NCBI GenBank assembly: GCA_017504435.1
Contig: JAFVRD010000026.1
Location: forward strand, 1 to 40,979
DNA from: Lentisphaeria bacterium
Lineage (GTDB): Bacteria; Verrucomicrobiota; Lentisphaeria; Victivallales; Victivallaceae
Length of the DNA stretch: 40,979 bases
Reading direction: 5' to 3'
The position numbers and the translations under genes are program-made. The notes under the pieces are model-generated. The model did no database searches and had not been told where the DNA came from. It worked only from the letters and a program-made list of their open reading frames with translations. Of the stretch, positions 7,512 to 40,979 are shown piece after piece; positions within the stretch are counted from its first letter, which is position 1; the number at the start of each line of letters is the position of its first letter.

Positions 7512-7588
7512 TGGTGGAGCAGATGGGAGTCGAACCCACGACCTATACGATGCGAACGTATCGCTCTAGCCAACTGAGCTACTGCCCC
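7512..7588 (-). tRNA. tRNA-Ala(CGC)
   Basis: A full cloverleaf on the minus strand: acceptor GGGGCAG/CTGCTCC with the alanine G3-U70 pair, D-arm GCTC...GAGC, anticodon stem ATACG/CGTAT with loop TTCGCAT (anticodon CGC), T-arm GTGGG-TTCGACT-CCCAT, discriminator A, and encoded CCA at 7512-7514. Its sequence is close to the GGC isoacceptor at 946-1022 except in the anticodon and T arms. Confidence 0.95.
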
Positions 7589-30672: not shown

Positions 30673-31638
30673 ATGAAACATCTCTTATCTCAATGCATGG
30701 AGAGGGAAAAACTGAATTTCACTTTGATAGAATTGCTTGTGAGTAAAACTTGTCAAACAGGTGTTTCGCTGTTGGGTTATCTCAAAAAAAGTATTCCGCT
30801 TTTCTTGAAAAAGGAAGAGGGGTGCGGGGAGAGGGGAAAAACCTCTTTTCCCGTGAAAAGAAGTTTTTCTCCTCTCTCAGCGAGCCGTTTCACTTTGATA
30901 GAATTGCTTGTCGTAATTGCGATAATCGCCATATTGGCGGGGATGCTGCTGCCGGCATTGCAGCAGGCCCGCAGCCGTGCTAAAACCAGTGCCTGTTCCA
31001 GTAATCTCAAACAGATGGGGATGTTGATGGGGCTTTACTGCGACAAAAACAATGATTTTTTTGCTCCGATGGACAATGAAGGCTGGACCCAGAGTAACGC
31101 CAAATACCGTACCTGGGCAAATTTCCTGCTCGATGCTTCACCTGACAATGACGGCAATCAGATGAAAGCACTGAATCAGACCCGGGGCAAAATATTTGAA
31201 GATTCCGCATTGCAAACTGAAGTAAATCAGCTTGCAGGATGGAATGGCGGACTTAACAATGTCGGCTACGGTTATAATTTTATGAATATCGGTTCATCTT
31301 TCCGGGTCACCGGCGTTGGGACCCGCTTCCCGCCCGCCAAAAGTACATCATTGCGGTATCCTGCCAAAACATATTTGATCATGGACACATATACCGTTAA
31401 ATCCCGTAATGCCGGTTGTTACCGGGTACTGGATTCTTATGATTTGAGTTACAATGACCAGTACGGTATCGCCGATCCGAAACGGCACAACCGGAGTGTT
31501 AATATCCTCCATGCGGATTCTCATGTTGCCTCCCGTCAGACCAATAATGATTCTGATGCCTACGCAGTCATCGGCAGCCGCGGCAGTGTATCATGGACCG
31601 GCGGCAGAAAAGATGTGAACACAGATTATTCTTTGTAA
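30673..31638 (+). CDS. Type II secretion-type pseudopilin (DUF1559-like) with duplicated processing motif
   Basis: 321 residues. Start ATG with AGGAGG 4 nt upstream. Two copies of the prepilin N-methylation/cleavage motif FTLIELLV occur, at residues 16-23 and 73-80. Only the second continues into the normal hydrophobic helix ([20 protein letters not shown]). After it comes the globular domain of the PVC pseudopilins, ending with '[15 protein letters not shown]', an H-X9-D variant of the TIGR04294 motif. The 57 residues from the first motif to the second are an insertion (see 30717-30911). Prepilin peptidase would cut before the Phe of the working motif. First gene of an operon with the beta-helix protein (32-nt gap). 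The role is probably cell-surface or secretion-linked. Confidence 0.88.
30717..30911 (+). repeat. 24-bp direct repeats flanking a hairpin-bearing in-frame insert
   Basis: The identical 24 bp at 30717-30740 and 30888-30911 encode the FTLIELLV core. The period is 171 bp (57 codons), so a simple recombination between them would remove the insert cleanly and leave one normal motif. The insert holds a long imperfect hairpin: GAGAGGGGAAAAAC (30829-30842) with GTTTTTCTCCTCTC (30863-30876), and inner CTCTTTTC/GAAAAG arms. From memory, inserts beginning 'SKTCQTGV' after FTLIELLV recur in other Victivallis pseudopilins. Confidence 0.8.
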
Positions 31639-31670
31639 ATTTTATCTTTATTTTGTCAAAAGGAGTTGTG

Positions 31671-33659
31671 ATGAGAAAAATTTTATTGATGGCGGTATTC
31701 ATTGCCGGTTTTGGCACATTGTGCGGAGCCAACGCCCCTGATGCCGAAAAAATCGCAGCGGTAAAAAAAGGTGAACTCAAAGAAGCCAGAGCTTCATGGT
31801 GGGGGTTTGATCCGGTGGACAGTACCGGGATTTTGCAGGCGGCACTGGACAGCCGCGTCCCCCGGTTGATCATCGACAAACAAAATTCGCCGTGGATCGT
31901 CCGCCCGTTGAAAGCCTACGGTAATATGGAGATCATTTTTGAAGACGGTGCCGAGATCGTCGCCAAACGCGGTGAATTCAAACCGCTGTACGACAGCCTT
32001 TTTACTCTGGAAAAAGCTGACAATGTCATTATCCGCGGTTTGGGCAGCGGCGGTATCCTGCGGATGTATAAAAAGGATTATCTGGACAGAAAACAGTATA
32101 AACACGGTGAATGGCGGCATTGTCTGAATGTTATTGAAGCCAAAAATCTGCATATCGAAAATATGAAATTTTTCAGCAGCGGCGGTGACGGCATCTATCT
32201 GCGCACGGTGGATAATGTCGTGGTTCGTAATGTGCTTTGCGATGACAACAGCCGTCAGGGCTGCAGTATCATCGGAGGTCATAATGTTTTGATCGAAAAC
32301 AGTGTATTCAGCAACACCCGCGGCACCAGTCCCCAATCAGGTCTGGATATCGAGCCGAATTATCCGGAAGAACCCCTGAGCGGTTTTGTGGTGCGCAACT
32401 GCAAATTCATCAACAACTTCCGCTGGGGCATCCTGGTCGCCGCCACCAGGCAGAACAGCGATCGCGCCGGTAATATTAATATCAAATTTGAAAACTGTAT
32501 CGCTGAAAACAACCGCGAAGGTGATATTTACGCCTACACCCGCACTGAATTCAAAACCGGAGATCCGATCCGCGGCAAAATCGAATTCATCAACTGTCAG
32601 GCGGTGAGCGACCGTCAGGATCCTTTTGTCCGTCCTCCGGTGGAAGTCGATCTTGATCTGCACCACCAGCTGCAGGTATATTTCAAAAATCTGCTTGTCA
32701 AGCGCGGCAAAAACACCTCCAAAGCCGTACAGATCAACTTCAATCACCCCCTGAGTGCCAATTCTGCACCGCAGGGAAAAATCATTTTTGATGATCTGAA
32801 ACTGGCGGATGTTACTGCGAAAGATGCGTTCCAGATCAACGATTACAGTTTTTCCGGCACCTCCGGCTGGATTTCCGGTACGGTTACTGACAGTACCGGC
32901 AAAAAACAGCAGATCACGGCTGAGGTTCTGAAAAAATCCGGTCAGCAGAGTGAAAAAGAATACGGTTTTGATTATACCAACAAAACTTTCTCCGCGACCG
33001 GTTACGGCGACGGTAAAAGCGAAACTTATCCGGAATTCCCCTTTATTCTCAGTGCCGATTATTGGCTGCTTGCCAAAGCCGGGGAACAGGTCAACTTTAC
33101 ATTGAAATACACCAAAAACGGCCGCTGGTCACGGGATCCCGCCCAAGTGACCCTGATCGCTCCGGACGGCAGCCGCACTCCGTTGGGCAGTGTCGCTCCT
33201 GCCGGCGAAAACACATTCGCATTCACCGCGAAATCAGCCGGCATCTACAAAGCGGAAGTACGGGGCTTCTATCTGAAAACCGCACTGATCGCTTCCAACG
33301 TACCTGCCGGACCGATCGCCAAAGATTTTGAGACCGAGCTTGACCGCGTGACCGGTTCACTTTATTTCTTTGTCCCTGCCGGAACTCCGGAATTTGCCGT
33401 CCGGGTCTGGGGACGGGGCTTTGTCAATTCAGTGGGCGTGCAGCTTACTGATCCGCAGGGCAGCGTGGTTTATAACAATCCATTTGTCTGCGGCGGCGGC
33501 GTGCAGTACAATGTTTCCGGGGCAAATGTCCGAAACGGGATCTGGAAAATAACTTTCTCCAAACCCCGCCGCTATTGGTATGACCGGTGCTTTTTCCGGT
33601 TGATGGGAGTACCGCAGTATCTCGGTTTACGTCCTGACCGGATGTTGGAGTGCAAATAA
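31671..33659 (+). CDS. Secreted parallel beta-helix (pectate-lyase-like) protein
   Basis: 662 residues from the ATG at 31671 (AAAGGAG 5 nt upstream), with a signal peptide MRKILLMAVFIAGFGTLCGA. Residues about 70-320 are a right-handed beta-helix of the pectin-lyase superfamily, with coil repeats such as 'NVIEAKNLHIENMKFFSSGGDGIYLRTVDNVVVRNVLC' and 'SGFVVRNCKFINNFRWGILVAA'. The remaining ~300 residues are beta-rich domains ('AGEQVNFTLKYTKNGRWSRDPAQVTLI') that may bind polysaccharide. No catalytic residues can be assigned, so a lyase, hydrolase or epimerase role is open. Its stop codon is immediately followed by the next gene's ATG. Confidence 0.8.
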   Translation: MRKILLMAVFIAGFGTLCGANAPDAEKIAAVKKGELKEARASWWGFDPVDSTGILQAALDSRVPRLIIDKQNSPWIVRPLKAYGNMEIIFEDGAEIVAKRGEFKPLYDSLFTLEKADNVIIRGLGSGGILRMYKKDYLDRKQYKHGEWRHCLNVIEAKNLHIENMKFFSSGGDGIYLRTVDNVVVRNVLCDDNSRQGCSIIGGHNVLIENSVFSNTRGTSPQSGLDIEPNYPEEPLSGFVVRNCKFINNFRWGILVAATRQNSDRAGNINIKFENCIAENNREGDIYAYTRTEFKTGDPIRGKIEFINCQAVSDRQDPFVRPPVEVDLDLHHQLQVYFKNLLVKRGKNTSKAVQINFNHPLSANSAPQGKIIFDDLKLADVTAKDAFQINDYSFSGTSGWISGTVTDSTGKKQQITAEVLKKSGQQSEKEYGFDYTNKTFSATGYGDGKSETYPEFPFILSADYWLLAKAGEQVNFTLKYTKNGRWSRDPAQVTLIAPDGSRTPLGSVAPAGENTFAFTAKSAGIYKAEVRGFYLKTALIASNVPAGPIAKDFETELDRVTGSLYFFVPAGTPEFAVRVWGRGFVNSVGVQLTDPQGSVVYNNPFVCGGGVQYNVSGANVRNGIWKITFSKPRRYWYDRCFFRLMGVPQYLGLRPDRMLECK

Positions 33660-36464
33660 ATGAGACGTTTCTTCAGTACGATTTTTACTTTAACAGCTTT
33701 GACTGCCCTGACTGCCGACCTCTCTTTTGAGCGGGACGGCAGTTGGACTTTACGCAAGCTTGACGGTGCTGAAGGATACATAACTTATGATACTGATCAG
33801 AAACTTGACGGTGAAAGATCATTGAAACTGGTCAAAACCAACAGTCGCGGCACTTTGGTGCTGACCAGCAGTGAGCCGGTGACTGCGCCTGCCGGTAAAA
33901 TCATGCAGTTCGGCGGCTGTTACCGCACTGACCATTCGGCTTTTGATGCCATGCTGCTGTTCCGGTTCTCCGGCTCGGCAAAAGAAAAAGATTTTCCCTA
34001 CAATTCCTCTCTTGACCGGGGGTGGGGATTGATGTCCCAGAGCTTTTTCAGAGCATTGCCGCCGGGACAATGGGCACGGCGGATCATGCACCAGAAGTTC
34101 GGTTCTGAACAAAAAGTTTATCTCAATATCCTGCTGACCGGAAATCCGGCAGAAATTTATTTGGATAAACTTAATTTTTCCGAACCGGAATACTGCCGTT
34201 ACCAGGCTTCTCTGCGCCGGGATGTTCCCTATGGATATACCCGCGAAGAGGCGTTGGCACAGCTTGCCGCCCGTCCGGAGGAAGTTTATACGATCAATGC
34301 CAGAGGTATGTTCTGCAACGGCAGAAAAGTTCTGCCGCAGCTCTACAAACCGGAACACTATTTTATGGATATGCCGTGGAACCGTTATGCGGATTTTCAC
34401 CGGGCTGGTGTCCGGCTGCAGCACCGGCCGCTGCCGCTGTCAGGCATGAAATCCGATCCGGGTGTGGTCAAAGCTCCGGGAGTTTATGATTTTGCCCTGG
34501 TGGATAAGGCATTGGAACACACGCTGCGTTCCGATCCGCAGGCACGGATAGTTATTCAATACGAGATCAATGAACCGTATCCCGACTGGGGTAAAGATCA
34601 TATCGATGAAGTCTGGCGCGATGCCCGGAACAACTTCGGTTACGGTACCTGGAGCAATATTACCGGATTCGTGCCGTCGCTGGATAAAGTCCGGCTCCGG
34701 GGCGATGCCAGGAAATTCCGCCCGTGGCTCTATCCGTCCTATGCTTCCAAATCATATCAGGAGATCCATTGCCGTTCTCTGACCGATGTGACCCGTTACA
34801 TTATGAGTTCACCTTACGGCAAAGCGGTAGTAGGTTTCATGGTTTCCGGCGGTCATGATTTCCAGTTTCAGCCTGCCCGTCCGGATTTTTCCGAACCGGG
34901 CAAACAGGCGTTCCGCCAATGGCTTAAAAAATATTACCGTAATGATATTCAAGCTCTCAACCGGGATTTGAAAACATCTTACCGGGATTTTGCGGAAATA
35001 AATGTTCCCGGACATCAGCGGTATGAAAATGAGATCGCCATTCCGCTGGGAGCAGATATATTCACCCGTTACAATGAATTTCAAAATGAGCTTTCCTGGC
35101 AGGTCAAACATTTGTTTGCCGATACGGTGCGCCAGGCTGCCGGGAAACCGGTTTTTGTGGCGGCATACGGTAATCCGCCGCAGTTTTTCGCCGATAAAGG
35201 GTGTGAACACTCCGGCGGCGTGGATTCTATCATCGATCAAGGGGGTTACGGTCAGCGGCTGCCGGGGTATCCGGTGGGCTGGCGTCCGGCGGACACCTAT
35301 AAACTGCACGGCAAAACTTTCTGCTGGGAGTGCGATTTGCGTACCTGGACTTATCCGGAACGCGGCGAAATGTACGATCACTGGGTGGGCGTGGCACTGA
35401 ATCCGGAAATGTGGCGTTCAGTCAACCGCAAATATGTGGGCATGGCACTGGCGAATGATTCGGCATGGCATTATCTGTCCATGAACCGTTATTTCGATGC
35501 CCCGGAAGTGATGGCGGAGATCGCCAAAACTACTCAGGCGGCACAGAAAGTATTGAATGCTCCGGAAGTTCCGCTGAATAAAGAAGTATGTATCATCCGC
35601 AGTGAAAAAGGCAATTTCCAGTACCGGGCGCGGCAGAGTATTCTGATGGAGCGTCCCAACAATCCGGTTCAATTCATGCAGCTGGAAACCTCCGGCGTAC
35701 CGTATGATATGCATTCATTGCATGATTTGGTGCGCAATAAAGAACTGCAGAAAAAATACAAAATGTACGTCTTTTTGCACACTTACATCATGGATGAAGC
35801 TGAACAGCAAGTCGTCGATTCGCTGAAAAAATCCGGCAACACCCTGATTTTTGTCTATGTTTCCGGTTACGGTCGAACCGGATTTGAATACCGTACTGAC
35901 GGCAGATACAGCCGCGGAGAAGGAATTTTGAGTGACCACGAGTTGACCGCCGGTTTGCGCGGATTCACCTCCATGGGCGAACTTTTCTGCCGTTCTCTGC
36001 GGTTGCGTGGGGAGACCAGAGAATATGCCCGCTATCAGCGGTTCTATCTGGCAAATGTCCCAAACAGTGAGGTTTTGAGCAAATATGCTGACGGCAAAAT
36101 CGCCGGAGCGATGAAAAAGGAGAACAACTGCCGGATCGTGGTATTGAGTGAACCATTCAGCTTGTCAGCAGGATTACTGCATAAACTGGCGGTGAGTGCC
36201 GGAATTTACACCTTTGCCGAACCGGGAGAAATTGCCGCATTTACCAACGGCAAATTCATGTCGCTTCATGCCGTGGGCAACGGGAGGGTGACCGTTACGC
36301 TGCCGCCGGGGGCGGAAACTGCGGCAGATATGTTTGCTCCGGCAGATAAACAGCAGCTGGCGGTAAAAGATGGCAAAGTGACATTGATGATGAATGCCGG
36401 AGAGAGCAAATGGCTGCTTTTCGGCAGAAAAGATATTCGTAAACAACAAAAACATTCAACATAA
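33660..36464 (+). CDS. Secreted GH42-like (clan GH-A) protein
   Basis: 934 residues with a signal peptide (MRRFFSTIFTLTALTALTA). A jelly-roll domain at about 20-190 is followed by a beta-galactosidase-like barrel at about 215-640 and a GH42 trimerisation-type domain ('YKMYVFLHTYIMDEAEQQVVDSLKK'). 'CWECDLRTW' supplies Glu557 at the nucleophile position. At the acid/base position stands 'SGGHDFQFQ' (G397-G398-H399-D400), with no NE pair. The same features occur in its paralogue at 12262-16074, which also shares 'TSYxDFA'. The ATG directly follows the previous stop; a GGAG in the upstream coding end serves translation. Extracellular or periplasmic action expected; substrate unknown. Confidence 0.77.
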   Translation: MRRFFSTIFTLTALTALTADLSFERDGSWTLRKLDGAEGYITYDTDQKLDGERSLKLVKTNSRGTLVLTSSEPVTAPAGKIMQFGGCYRTDHSAFDAMLLFRFSGSAKEKDFPYNSSLDRGWGLMSQSFFRALPPGQWARRIMHQKFGSEQKVYLNILLTGNPAEIYLDKLNFSEPEYCRYQASLRRDVPYGYTREEALAQLAARPEEVYTINARGMFCNGRKVLPQLYKPEHYFMDMPWNRYADFHRAGVRLQHRPLPLSGMKSDPGVVKAPGVYDFALVDKALEHTLRSDPQARIVIQYEINEPYPDWGKDHIDEVWRDARNNFGYGTWSNITGFVPSLDKVRLRGDARKFRPWLYPSYASKSYQEIHCRSLTDVTRYIMSSPYGKAVVGFMVSGGHDFQFQPARPDFSEPGKQAFRQWLKKYYRNDIQALNRDLKTSYRDFAEINVPGHQRYENEIAIPLGADIFTRYNEFQNELSWQVKHLFADTVRQAAGKPVFVAAYGNPPQFFADKGCEHSGGVDSIIDQGGYGQRLPGYPVGWRPADTYKLHGKTFCWECDLRTWTYPERGEMYDHWVGVALNPEMWRSVNRKYVGMALANDSAWHYLSMNRYFDAPEVMAEIAKTTQAAQKVLNAPEVPLNKEVCIIRSEKGNFQYRARQSILMERPNNPVQFMQLETSGVPYDMHSLHDLVRNKELQKKYKMYVFLHTYIMDEAEQQVVDSLKKSGNTLIFVYVSGYGRTGFEYRTDGRYSRGEGILSDHELTAGLRGFTSMGELFCRSLRLRGETREYARYQRFYLANVPNSEVLSKYADGKIAGAMKKENNCRIVVLSEPFSLSAGLLHKLAVSAGIYTFAEPGEIAAFTNGKFMSLHAVGNGRVTVTLPPGAETAADMFAPADKQQLAVKDGKVTLMMNAGESKWLLFGRKDIRKQQKHST

Positions 36465-36477
36465 AACGGAGGACATC

Positions 36478-37686
36478 ATGAAAAAATTTATGGCAATGAT
36501 CATGGCAGGAGCGGTATTGAATGCTTTTGCCGCAGACAAACCGATCAATTTCGGCAAGGAACTTTTCAACGTACCGGAAACCACCCCGGCGGCAGTGAGT
36601 TTCACTCTGCCAGCCAGAGTAAAAAGTGTTTATATTACCGGACCGGAATACAACGGCAAACCGACTAAAGTTTTTGCCTGCTACGGTGTCCCTGCCGGTA
36701 AAGACGGTAAAAAAGTTCCCGGAGTTGTACTGCTTCACGGCAGCGGCGGTACGGCATTTGCCAATTGGGTCGCACTCTGGAATTCCCGTGGATATGCCGC
36801 GATCGCAGTAGATTACCACGGCAGGATGCCCCGGGGCGGCGGCTGGAAAAGCAGCTCAGCCAATGTCGCAAATCCCGCAGGCGGTCCCTCTGAAAACAAC
36901 CGTTATAAAATGGGAGTTCCCCATGCGGAAAGTTTTACCTATCATGCAGTTGCGGCGGCATTAATGGCTCATTCCGTACTTGCCGCACAGGATGGGGTCG
37001 ATGCGGACAAAATCGGGGTCGTTGGTATTTCCATGGGCGGCGTGCTGGCATTGCGGGTGGCTGGTATCGACCACCGGCTGAATTTTGCGACAGCCATTTA
37101 CGGCTGCGGCAATATGATGCGCGGCACAGTTTTTGGCGACCGTTCCCGGAAAAATTATAAAATGAGCGAAGCCGGAGTCAGAGAATACATTGAAAGTCAC
37201 GACCCGCTGGTCTATCTTCCTGCCGCCCGCTGTCCGGTATTTATGGTCAACAACACCAACGATCCGTTTTTCCGTACCAAACCGTGGCTGGAAACTCTCG
37301 CAGCGGTCAAAAGCGGTGCATATCAATCCATGCGGATGAATTTCAAACATGGTCATGTAAATTCTGATGTTCCGGAAATCAAACTTTTTGCGGATTGGGT
37401 GAATGGTAAAAATGTTGAGCTCCCGCAGCTCTCCGCTCCGGTCAGAATCGGTGATAAACTCGGTGCTGCGGTTTCCGGTATCAAAGCTGCCAGCTGGACA
37501 GCCGAATTGATCTGGACGGCTGATAAAGGTTACGGAGTCAACCGCAAATGGCAGAGTTCTCCGGCGCAGTTCAATGCCTCCGGCAATCAGCTGGAAGCTG
37601 AATTTCCGGCAGGATGCAAACATGCGTTTTTCCGTGTTTCCAACAAAAACGGAGCGGGATTTACCACTCCGCACATTCTGTTTTAA
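36478..37686 (+). CDS. Secreted alpha/beta-hydrolase (acetyl-xylan-esterase/dienelactone-hydrolase-like)
   Basis: 402 residues from the ATG at 36478 (ACGGAGGA 5 nt upstream), with a signal peptide ending near AFA-A. The alpha/beta-hydrolase core is at about 50-310: 'VVLLHGSGG' (oxyanion loop) near 83-91, the nucleophile elbow GISMGG at 183-188 (Ser185), the likely acid Asp262 in 'NTNDPF', and the His in 'FKHGH' (291 or 293). A C-terminal ~80-residue beta domain ends it. Resembles AXE1/CE7-type and DLH-type esterases in PVC CAZyme clusters, which remove acetyl groups from polysaccharides. It starts 13 nt after the preceding stop and belongs to the same operon. Confidence 0.85.
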   Translation: MKKFMAMIMAGAVLNAFAADKPINFGKELFNVPETTPAAVSFTLPARVKSVYITGPEYNGKPTKVFACYGVPAGKDGKKVPGVVLLHGSGGTAFANWVALWNSRGYAAIAVDYHGRMPRGGGWKSSSANVANPAGGPSENNRYKMGVPHAESFTYHAVAAALMAHSVLAAQDGVDADKIGVVGISMGGVLALRVAGIDHRLNFATAIYGCGNMMRGTVFGDRSRKNYKMSEAGVREYIESHDPLVYLPAARCPVFMVNNTNDPFFRTKPWLETLAAVKSGAYQSMRMNFKHGHVNSDVPEIKLFADWVNGKNVELPQLSAPVRIGDKLGAAVSGIKAASWTAELIWTADKGYGVNRKWQSSPAQFNASGNQLEAEFPAGCKHAFFRVSNKNGAGFTTPHILF

Positions 37687-37719
37687 GTTTGCGATACTGA
37701 CAGATAGGAGGATTTGATT

Positions 37720-40700
37720 ATGAGTGATGAAACGAAAATGATGGTTGAAGCAGTTATTTATGCTCCGGAACAAATAAACGAAATTTCTGTCGGCGACGTT
37801 GTTTTTGCAGGAGAATGGGTGGATTCCGCTTCCGGGAATCCCTCATCGGTATCCGCAAACACGGCATTTTCCGACTTTACTGCGACGCAGAAAAGCTACG
37901 TGACCGCCGGGACAGTCGGTTTTTCCGGTATGACCTTTTCCGGCATGACCAATTCGTACGGAGGTGCGCTCCGCTTTGAAGCCGGTGCAAATGTCACGAT
38001 TTCCGGCAGTACTTTTTCCGGGAACAGTTCTGAATATGGCGGCGGTTTTTACAGTGCCGCAACCAATTTAACGGTCATTGATACGCTGTTTGATGGCAAC
38101 CATGCTGCAACCAAAGGCGGCGGAGTGATCATCAACGGAGCTGGTACGGTCAAATTCAGCGGGGTGACATTCAGCAGCAACACCAGTAAAAGTGAAGGAG
38201 CCGCGCTGCAGCTCAATGATTATCGGGCAAAAGTGGAAATTTCCGGTACGACATTTGCCACAGCCAGTGATACTCTTTTTGCTTCCGGAGGATCCAAAAA
38301 TCACTATAATGATGTAACTTTTACCGGACGCAACGTGATCAATGCCTCCATTTATGTTTATTGCGCCACGATCAATGCTTCTGATGCCCAGCTGGTATTT
38401 GACAACGATCAGGCGATTGATATCAAATCCATGGTATTTGTTACTCCGGAAAATGCTGAAAACAGCAACAGTGTGACTTTCTCCGGCAGTAAAACCGTAA
38501 AATTCACCAATGCCGATGCCGATGTCGAATTGAAAGATGTTGCAGTCAATATCTCCGTTGATTGTCTGACTGAATTTGTTAAAGATACTGATGCGGAAAA
38601 TTACACATTCACCATCGCTTCCGGTATCACCGCTATGGATCAGACGATCACCGTTGACGGCAAAACAGTTGAACTCGGTGAAGCTGTTGAAATCGGCGGG
38701 AGCAGTTTTACATTCAACTTCGCGAACGGTAATCTTTCTGCCGTTTGGAATGACCCTGAAACGGCAAATATTTATGCGCCATCCGCGCTTACCGGGGCGA
38801 TGATCGGCGGTGAAATGTTCAAAGGTTCGTATGTTTCTGCCACGGTTCCGACCAGTCACCTTGAAACGCGGACTGCGATCGTCGGCATTGAAACTTCCAG
38901 CCGGATATCTTTCAAAAATACCATTGGCGGCATGAAAGATGTCACGGTGTCCGATATCACATTTTCAAACGATTACGGTGCACTGAAAATCCAGATAAAT
39001 ACCAATACTCCGCAGGAAACGCTGATTTTTATTGATAATTCAAAATTTTTGAGTAATTACAATACCTCTCACAGCGGCGGTGCGATCGGACTGTTGACCG
39101 GTGCGGTCAATATCAGCAGCAAAACCGTTTTTTCCGGTAACACTTCTGCGGTGCATGGCGGCGCGATCTTCACTAACGACAGCAGCTGTTCAGCAACGGT
39201 CAGTAATGCACTGTTCACTGGTAATATTGCCAATTCATCCGCCGGAGCGTATTACATCAATGGTATTGCCACGATCGACAATGCGGTGTTCAGCGGCAAC
39301 AGCTGCAAAACTTTCGGCGGTGCGCTTTATAACGGTGGAACGACCACGATAACCGGCTCCACATTTACCGGTAATATTGCCGGTCAGCGCGGTGGTGCAA
39401 TATTTACCAACTCGATATTGAATCTGAAAGATTCTTTGTTTATAGAAAACACGCTTTCAGAAAAAGTGAATACGGATTACAGCGGCGGAGCGTTGAGTAT
39501 CAATTCCAGCAGCAAATACGTTACGATCAGTGGTTCCACGTTTGCATCGAATACCACCGGACAGTTGGGCGGCGCGATCAATTCAGCCAAAGACCTGACC
39601 ATTACCCGTTCGGAAAAACATCTCACGGTATTTACCGGAAACAGTGCCGGCAAGTATGGCGGCGCACTGTATAACAGTTCTGTCATGGATATTTCCGGTG
39701 CGGAATTCACCGACAACATTTCCGGCAGCGGCGGTGCAGTGTACAACGGCGGTACTGCGACACTTTCCGGAGTGAAATTTATCAAAAACTTTGCGGCTGA
39801 TAATGGCGGAGCATTCTACGGTGGTACGAATACTTTGACCGATCTCCTTTTCTCCGGCAATACCGGTAAAAACGGCGGCGCGATCTATAATGATAAATTT
39901 ACTGAAATTACCGGGACAGTATTTTCCGGCAATACTTCAACTGCTCACGGTGGAGCCATTTATAACAGCGGTGCTGCCACGATAACCGGCTCCACATTTA
40001 CCGGTAATACGAGTGCTGCCCGCGGCGGTGCCATATATTCCAATAAAACTCTGACGGTAATTGATACCGTATTTGCCAATAACGGCAGTGTGTCCACCAA
40101 TGAAAGCGGCGGTGCCATAATCGTTGATAAAGGAACTGCCACGGTCACCGGATGCACTTTTTCCGGCAACAAATCCGGTTATGGTGCATTATTCGCACAT
40201 AACAACGATGTAGTGATCAATATTTCCGGCTCGACTTTTGCCACTGCCAGCGACTATATCCACTCTTACGCCGGGGTGGTCAATTTCACCGGAACCAACG
40301 TCATGAATGCCCAAATCATCAATTCGAGAGGCGCAATCAATTTGACTGATTCGGTGATGATTTTTGACAATGACAAAGCTGTTAATATTGCCGGAATGAC
40401 TTTTTATGGCAGCAATACATTGAAGTTGACCGGTGCGCAGGTCAACTTCACCGGTTTGGATGTGGAAGATGTCACCATTGTGGTCAATGGCGCAGATCTC
40501 ACTGCCGGTGCGGTCGTTGCCGCCGGAGTCAGCGGTGCGCTTGATGATGACAAAGTTATCAATAACAGCGCACTGTATCTCGCTGTCGAAAACGGCAATC
40601 TGGTGCTCAAAGCGAAATTGGCGGAAAACTCCACCGGTTCAGTATATGGCGGCGGTTCAGAGACCAATGACGGTACCAATATCACCCAGACGATCGCTTC

Positions 40701-40979
40701 CGGGTTGAAACAGGGAACGGTCTTTGCCGGAAGTGAAAAAGGCACGGACGGCAAAATCACCACCACCGTTACCGGCGGTGAAATCGTTAAACACCTTTAT
40801 GGCGGCGGCAAAGTTTCCGCCGACTCCACCAAATTGACGGTCGAAGGCGGCACGGTCGGTCAGGATGTTTACGGCGGATTGCTGATCAAAAACGCGACCG
40901 ATGCGATTTCGCTTGGCGAAAGCAATTTGACGGTTTCCGGCGGTACTTTCAATCAGTATGTGGTCGGCGGCAGCCGGGT
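37720..40979 (+). CDS. Giant Pmp-like repeat protein (adhesin/autotransporter passenger), 3' end missing
   Basis: 1086 codons, open to the window edge; start ATG with TAGGAGGA 6-8 nt upstream. No classical signal peptide is seen at the N-terminus (MSDETKMMVEAVIYAPEQIN). Residues about 75-830 carry roughly fifteen GGA[ILVF] and about seventeen FxxN motifs in alternation (for example FSGNTSTAHGGAIYN), the repeat pattern of Chlamydia polymorphic membrane proteins (PF02415). Such repeats form beta-helix passengers. Modules at about 173-280 and 834-930 are duplicates of one another (both contain STFATASD and FDND). From about 975 a second repeat type appears, with GG..VYGG/LYGG. A C-terminal beta-barrel, if any, lies beyond the window. 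Last visible gene of the pseudopilin operon (33-nt gap). Confidence 0.82.
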   Translation, partial: MSDETKMMVEAVIYAPEQINEISVGDVVFAGEWVDSASGNPSSVSANTAFSDFTATQKSYVTAGTVGFSGMTFSGMTNSYGGALRFEAGANVTISGSTFSGNSSEYGGGFYSAATNLTVIDTLFDGNHAATKGGGVIINGAGTVKFSGVTFSSNTSKSEGAALQLNDYRAKVEISGTTFATASDTLFASGGSKNHYNDVTFTGRNVINASIYVYCATINASDAQLVFDNDQAIDIKSMVFVTPENAENSNSVTFSGSKTVKFTNADADVELKDVAVNISVDCLTEFVKDTDAENYTFTIASGITAMDQTITVDGKTVELGEAVEIGGSSFTFNFANGNLSAVWNDPETANIYAPSALTGAMIGGEMFKGSYVSATVPTSHLETRTAIVGIETSSRISFKNTIGGMKDVTVSDITFSNDYGALKIQINTNTPQETLIFIDNSKFLSNYNTSHSGGAIGLLTGAVNISSKTVFSGNTSAVHGGAIFTNDSSCSATVSNALFTGNIANSSAGAYYINGIATIDNAVFSGNSCKTFGGALYNGGTTTITGSTFTGNIAGQRGGAIFTNSILNLKDSLFIENTLSEKVNTDYSGGALSINSSSKYVTISGSTFASNTTGQLGGAINSAKDLTITRSEKHLTVFTGNSAGKYGGALYNSSVMDISGAEFTDNISGSGGAVYNGGTATLSGVKFIKNFAADNGGAFYGGTNTLTDLLFSGNTGKNGGAIYNDKFTEITGTVFSGNTSTAHGGAIYNSGAATITGSTFTGNTSAARGGAIYSNKTLTVIDTVFANNGSVSTNESGGAIIVDKGTATVTGCTFSGNKSGYGALFAHNNDVVINISGSTFATASDYIHSYAGVVNFTGTNVMNAQIINSRGAINLTDSVMIFDNDKAVNIAGMTFYGSNTLKLTGAQVNFTGLDVEDVTIVVNGADLTAGAVVAAGVSGALDDDKVINNSALYLAVENGNLVLKAKLAENSTGSVYGGGSETNDGTNITQTIASGLKQGTVFAGSEKGTDGKITTTVTGGEIVKHLYGGGKVSADSTKLTVEGGTVGQDVYGGLLIKNATDAISLGESNLTVSGGTFNQYVVGGSR
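39344..40009 (+). repeat. 33-bp identical in-frame direct repeats within the Pmp-like gene
   Basis: 39344-39376 and 39977-40009 are identical over 33 bp and are 633 bp (211 codons) apart, in phase. Recombination between them would delete or duplicate about five GGA/FxxN repeats while keeping the frame. Confidence 0.75.

Follow-up and report, generated by a model that had tools for sequence, protein, structure and literature searches.

A family of Pmp-repeat β-helix proteins in Lentisphaeria lacks an autotransporter barrel and shares a portable C-terminal cap that may direct it to type I secretion

Introduction

The repeat described by PF02415 takes its name from Chlamydia, where it builds the passengers of the Pmp autotransporters upstream of a type V barrel (PF03797). 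Its occurrence beyond Chlamydia is already known: the repeat has been found in more than 100 non-chlamydial species, in Phycisphaerae, an archaeon and Trichomonas (PMC10715098). The same study describes its conserved tetrapeptides as buried structural motifs and challenges their part as adhesion sites. A different export system, type I secretion (T1SS), handles large cargo of its own: ABC proteins of the CLD type export large proteins with uncleaved C-terminal signals, normally RTX proteins (PMC8277102). RTX cargo of T1SS is characterised by [FLI][VAI] ends, enrichment in β-strands and depletion of Pro and Arg (PMC8861453).

Here we analyse a stretch of DNA of 40,979 nucleotides (the window) from a gut bacterium of the Lentisphaeria, the lineage to which the cultured Victivallis vadensis also belongs. 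The window is the entire contig C18 of an assembly of 61 contigs and 2.26 Mb, 95.5% complete, and it ends inside a gene for a Pmp-repeat protein. Judging from sequence, what appears to be new is that several features come together: a family of about 20 mosaic genes, Pmp passengers free of a barrel, a conserved C-terminal cap that is portable, and export that is likely to be of type I.

Results

The Pmp-repeat gene starts with an ATG at 37720 on the forward strand and occupies 37720..40979, with 1086 residues present. Direct reading of the sequence places a Shine-Dalgarno motif, AGGAGG, at 37706..37711 and an in-frame stop, TAG, at 37705-37707. The latter leaves only four codons upstream of the ATG, so that a longer N-terminus is impossible. 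At the other side the frame stays open up to the final base of the window, where the contig also ends; the missing 3' part is an assembly break caused by repeats and not a matter of window choice.

The gene closes a run on the same strand that encodes a right-handed β-helix protein of polysaccharide-active type (31593..33659; PF13229, 48.6 bits), a GH42-like secreted glycosidase (33660..36464; PF02449, 24.5 bits, cut-off 21) and a secreted esterase of AXE1/DLH type with a hydrophobic N-terminus (36475..37686). The esterase gene lies 33 bp upstream of the Pmp-repeat gene and the two are probably co-transcribed. Other copies of the family adjoin genes for GH13, AXE1, a β-helix protein, a DUF6259 protein or a GntR/LacI-type regulator. 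Together, the neighbouring genes may point to use in polysaccharide-rich settings. Elsewhere, the window carries two tRNA-Ala genes on the minus strand, at 946-1022 and 7512-7588, with anticodons GGC and CGC.

A sequence-only reading of the window had claimed a repeat of the Pmp type, and the family profiles bear this out: the protein scores 86.5 bits with PF02415 (cut-off 20.6) over seven stretches, and 93.7 bits with TIGR01376 (cut-off 15) over nine. It contains 14 GGA[ILVFY] and 21 FxxN motifs, far above the counts in 2000 residue shuffles (mean 0.5 and maximum 4 for GGA[ILVFY]; mean 4.8 and maximum 14 for FxxN). The majority of FxxN motifs sit 8-9 residues ahead of a GGA, a pairing comparable to that of chlamydial Pmps (PMC10715098). 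The motifs form a first GGA/FxxN block at residues 81-155 (37960..38184), where β-strands are predicted with pLDDT of 70-85, and a main block of paired FxxN and GGA at residues 437-828 (39028..40203), predicted as a regular β-helix with pLDDT mostly of 85-97. The second glycine-rich repeat proposed in the same reading is also present, as VYGG, VFAG, LYGG and VYGG at residues 975-1053. It opens a conserved C-terminal β-helix domain, of which the window holds the start (40642..40979) and which is complete in relatives. A phmmer search of the window protein against the PDB gave no significant match.

The presumed origin of the DNA is likewise supported: the T1SS ABC protein of the genome has its best named relatives in Lentisphaerae MAGs, with which it shares 85-87% identity. 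What is not supported is the use of PF02415 as a link particular to Chlamydia and the PVC phyla: an E. coli control genome gives PF02415 matches as well, and the family is documented far outside PVC.

By Kyte-Doolittle hydropathy, the sole criterion applied here, the N-terminus of the window protein is polar and free of a signal peptide, and none of the paralogues and relatives whose start is available has a strong hydrophobic N-terminus. This sets the family apart from its neighbours in the window, whose products do have one. The earlier claim of a missing classical signal peptide is robust, given the in-frame stop four codons before the ATG. An autotransporter barrel is absent by Pfam from the complete C-termini of paralogues and relatives, the window protein's own C-terminus lying beyond the contig. 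PF03797 was found in none of the eight genomes tested from the genus and family (the source genome and seven relatives). Of 137 genomes of the order, 40 contain PF02415 and two others PF03797, with zero overlap; the only barrels in this set are at G036:C1:2434384-2435139, G036:C1:1113665-1114417 and G048:C56:16320-17072. The Pmp middle region gave no Pfam match in the window protein or in complete relatives at E values up to 1 or 0.5. With neither middle region, barrel nor signal peptide, the protein is therefore not a Pmp autotransporter, and the suspicion that its export and architecture differ from those of chlamydial Pmps was well placed.

The window gene belongs to a family of at least 19-20 paralogues in the 2.26-Mb genome; the sequence-only reading had overlooked both this family and the repeat-induced nature of the break at the window's end. 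Nineteen fragments, the window's included, have their start and run off the 3' side of a contig, while seven run in from a contig edge and have their C-terminal end; the family accounts for 26 of the 122 contig ends of the assembly. The 3' parts of different copies share 80-98% DNA identity over about 100-900 bases, and it is because of this near-identity that contigs break within the family. The first 400 residues of the paralogues, in contrast, are only 26-34% identical, at or slightly above a shuffled control (24-30%). In the window gene, 40410..40567 is 93-94% identical in DNA to the paralogues on contigs C58 and C59, which stop before 40597, and 40597..40979 is 93% identical to those on C38 and C2, which do not align to the preceding segment. 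The switch of partner between 40567 and 40597 reads as a mosaic junction, and we infer recombination among paralogues. We also considered joining the window to the C-terminal fragment on contig C12 (97.3% identity over the terminal 75 bases), and rejected it as C38 (99.2%) and C2 (95.1%) overlap that end as well.

Two C-termini complete to their stop codon are available on contig C12 of the source genome (G000), and full-length family genes are plentiful in genomes of the same genus (G033, G007, G020 and G030). All full-length relatives are without a signal peptide, by inspection and hydropathy. Their passengers are of several types: Pmp repeats in G000, G033, G010 and G020, AIDA repeats (PF16168) in G030 and other Gly-rich repeats in G007. 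Common to them are the conserved C-terminal β-helix, with GGWA, YGG and MGGR-like motifs, and a final segment of about 100 residues, the cap, in which one Trp is invariant. A profile of the cap also matches fragments in G009, the end of one giant protein of Victivallis vadensis DSM 14823 and, in G006 and G026, proteins of 600 residues that have unrelated N-termini and lack a signal peptide. Being present on otherwise unrelated passengers, the cap is a portable module.

Cap-bearing relatives end mostly in Leu-Ala or Thr-Ala. Leu-Ala closes 20 of 41 complete relatives and 3 of 328 background ORFs; the window protein's own end falls beyond the contig. The last 60 residues of the family are devoid of Cys and contain hardly any Pro or Arg. 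They show no depletion of Lys and Glu, unlike the C-terminal 20 residues of RTX proteins. In G033:C165, a 3990-codon open frame (L104) has the same cap at its end.

The cap covers only some PF02415 proteins within the order, since others, for example in G018, G031, G038, G140 and G145, carry different C-termini and do not match the cap model. The PF02415-rich proteins L312-L317 of G018 belong to these, with C-termini off the cap model; several share a different N-terminus, beginning MGLD. Two further PF02415-type proteins (L318 and L319, in G038 and G145) have an N-terminal LEDRVLFEA motif, which we take to be LEPR-XLL-like and which points to yet another handling route for such proteins. Separately, a large open frame of the source genome (L061:1-3231, contig C47, minus strand), cut by the contig end, has the N-terminus MEQQNIANGGVQYVPQIAVQYVYLDFDGE without a signal peptide; its product may be another exported protein of this kind.

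AlphaFold2 models the complete C-terminal domain with a pLDDT of 92.4 and a pTM of 0.92. In VIA alignments, the model superposes on UpaB (Z 14.5; 259 residues, rmsd 5.0), pertactin (Z 13.3), Ag43 (Z 11.6) and the Caulobacter S-layer protein RsaA (Z 11.0), the latter being type I secreted. Several of these alignments extend to the last residue of the domain and to the C-terminal parts of the matched passengers. Foldseek found nothing below an E value of 0.001 in the PDB for the C-terminal model; for the window model, only Ag43 passes, at 9.1e-4. The predicted fold of the C-terminal domain is a generic right-handed β-helix with a cap, not a membrane barrel. The window protein is modelled with a pLDDT of 69.7 overall and 277 residues below 50, and we used that model only for residues about 440-960. 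As PMC11795689 describes, AlphaFold2 gives confident but unrealistic solenoids for repeat proteins; in view of this warning, we do not count the solenoid models as proof.

A single adjacent pair of HlyB-like and HlyD genes occurs in 22 of 24 genomes of the genus tested. In the source genome it is placed on contig C40, and a TolC-like gene, whose product scores under the TIGR01844 cut-off, on C7; TolC-like proteins are found in all eight genomes tested. HlyD reaches 276 bits against a cut-off of 208.65. For the ABC protein (G000:C40, L160:8403-10964, minus strand), the best NCBIfam model is TIGR01846, at 657 bits and thus below its cut-off of 725.55, and in the PDB it matches HlyB best (1e-156). 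It has a C39-like domain (PF03412), by its sequence an inactive one, in which the catalytic Cys is changed to Ser and the His to Tyr. An extra N-terminal module of about 140 residues aligns to the C39-like domain of the same protein (hhalign, E value 9.6e-5, 58% probability) and is possibly a tandem C39-like domain. The module is present in Lentisphaeria, and the span of tblastn matches suggests that some Akkermansia and Desulfovibrio MAGs share it. No family gene was seen beside an hlyBD pair. A cap is detectable in only about half of the T1SS-positive genomes, and just two genomes have no HlyD match above the cut-off, so that the co-occurrence of T1SS and cap is weak.

Discussion

From fold and architecture, we infer an adhesin or glycan-binding role for these proteins, at the cell surface or in secreted form. 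The Pmp repeats are passenger repeats of chlamydial autotransporters and the C-terminal model is similar to the ends of such passengers, as would be expected if the window encoded a type V Pmp with an overlooked signal peptide and a barrel that the contig end has cut off. The upstream stop rules out a longer N-terminus, however, complete paralogues and relatives terminate without a barrel, and PF03797 is missing both from the source genome and from all examined members of the order that have PF02415; we regard this account as barely credible. It is just as hard to believe that the repeat-rich ORFs are decayed or assembly-chimeric and without function: every copy in the source genome is indeed broken at a contig end, but at least 19 frames there stay open, the longest for 1675 codons, and several other genomes have full-length, intact copies of about 790-1900 codons.

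Two other accounts concern the route itself. The C39-like domain of the ABC transporter could mean that the cargo carries an N-terminal double-glycine leader, as used by C39-peptidase ABC exporters. Yet Ser and Tyr occupy the positions of the catalytic Cys and His, the N-termini have no common leader or GG site, and active C39 transporters move small cargo (PMC8277102), which makes such a leader very improbable. The other account is an atypical or otherwise signal-peptide-independent exit (an unrecognised N-terminal signal, holin-like release or lysis, or outer-membrane vesicles), with the cap serving in folding. The resemblance of the C-terminal model to a β-helix cap, the lack of RTX repeats in the cargo and the many T1SS-positive genomes without a detectable cap all speak for it; still, the cap is kept across otherwise unrelated passengers that end like type I cargo, and an HlyB/HlyD pair of the C-terminal-signal type is near-universal in the genus. 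We consider this exit unlikely, though a serious candidate.

Type I secretion with the cap as its signal remains the most likely export route, to which we assign a probability of roughly 60%. In this mechanism, Pmp-type passengers would have been detached from the type V barrel and would exit unfolded, C-terminus first, through an HlyB/HlyD/TolC-like system, with the cap, or its last ~60 residues, acting as an uncleaved secretion signal. Folding would take place outside the cell, where the cap could nucleate the helix, a part played in autotransporter passengers by the autochaperone. The variable N-terminal rungs might then bind other cells or glycans of the host or of plants, and recombination between the near-identical 3' halves would shuffle N-terminal modules among paralogues.

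More broadly, and with slightly less than even confidence, we propose that Pmp and AIDA β-helix passengers across gut Lentisphaeria were freed from the type V barrel and rerouted to an HlyB-type transporter by a portable cap, giving each genome a repertoire of some 20 variable surface proteins that is subject to recombination. If true, they would be a new class of non-RTX cargo for transporters with a C39-like domain, breaking the reported pairing of these transporters with RTX cargo, and the Chlamydia-named repeat would be an export-independent β-helix building block that fits type V or type I secretion. Near-identical 3' halves joined to divergent N-terminal halves resemble module shuffling for surface variation in a gut symbiont; the family also explains the fragmentation of such genomes in short-read assemblies.

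Among known systems, the RTX proteins and their HlyB/HlyD/TolC exporters are similar in the large size of the cargo, its lack of a signal peptide, the hydrophobic-small end seen in complete relatives and the β-rich C-terminus, as well as in an HlyB-like ABC protein with an inactive C39-like domain and an HlyD partner. The Lentisphaeria family differs from them in having essentially no RTX nonapeptides (GGxGxDxUx; one motif in 66 family proteins and no array) and in cargo genes that are scattered and not placed by the transporter, which itself bears the additional N-terminal module of ~140 residues, in appearance a second C39-like domain. The passengers of AIDA-I, Ag43, UpaB and pertactin are right-handed β-helices to which the C-terminal model aligns at Z 11-14, and some Lentisphaeria relatives bear their AIDA repeats (PF16168); unlike them, the family is made without a barrel or a signal peptide. 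With chlamydial Pmps it shares the alternating FxxN and GGA[ILV] motifs at β-helix rung spacing, the multi-copy organisation and the large predicted β-helix, whereas the signal peptide, a matched Pmp middle region and the type V barrel are absent and the C-terminus is another conserved β-helix with its cap. The FxxN/GGA β-helix outside Chlamydia is, finally, common to the PF02415 proteins of Phycisphaerae, Methanobrevibacter and Trichomonas (PMC10715098); compared with these, the Lentisphaeria proteins end in a defined C-terminal cap, form a large mosaic family within one genome and have a proposed export route.
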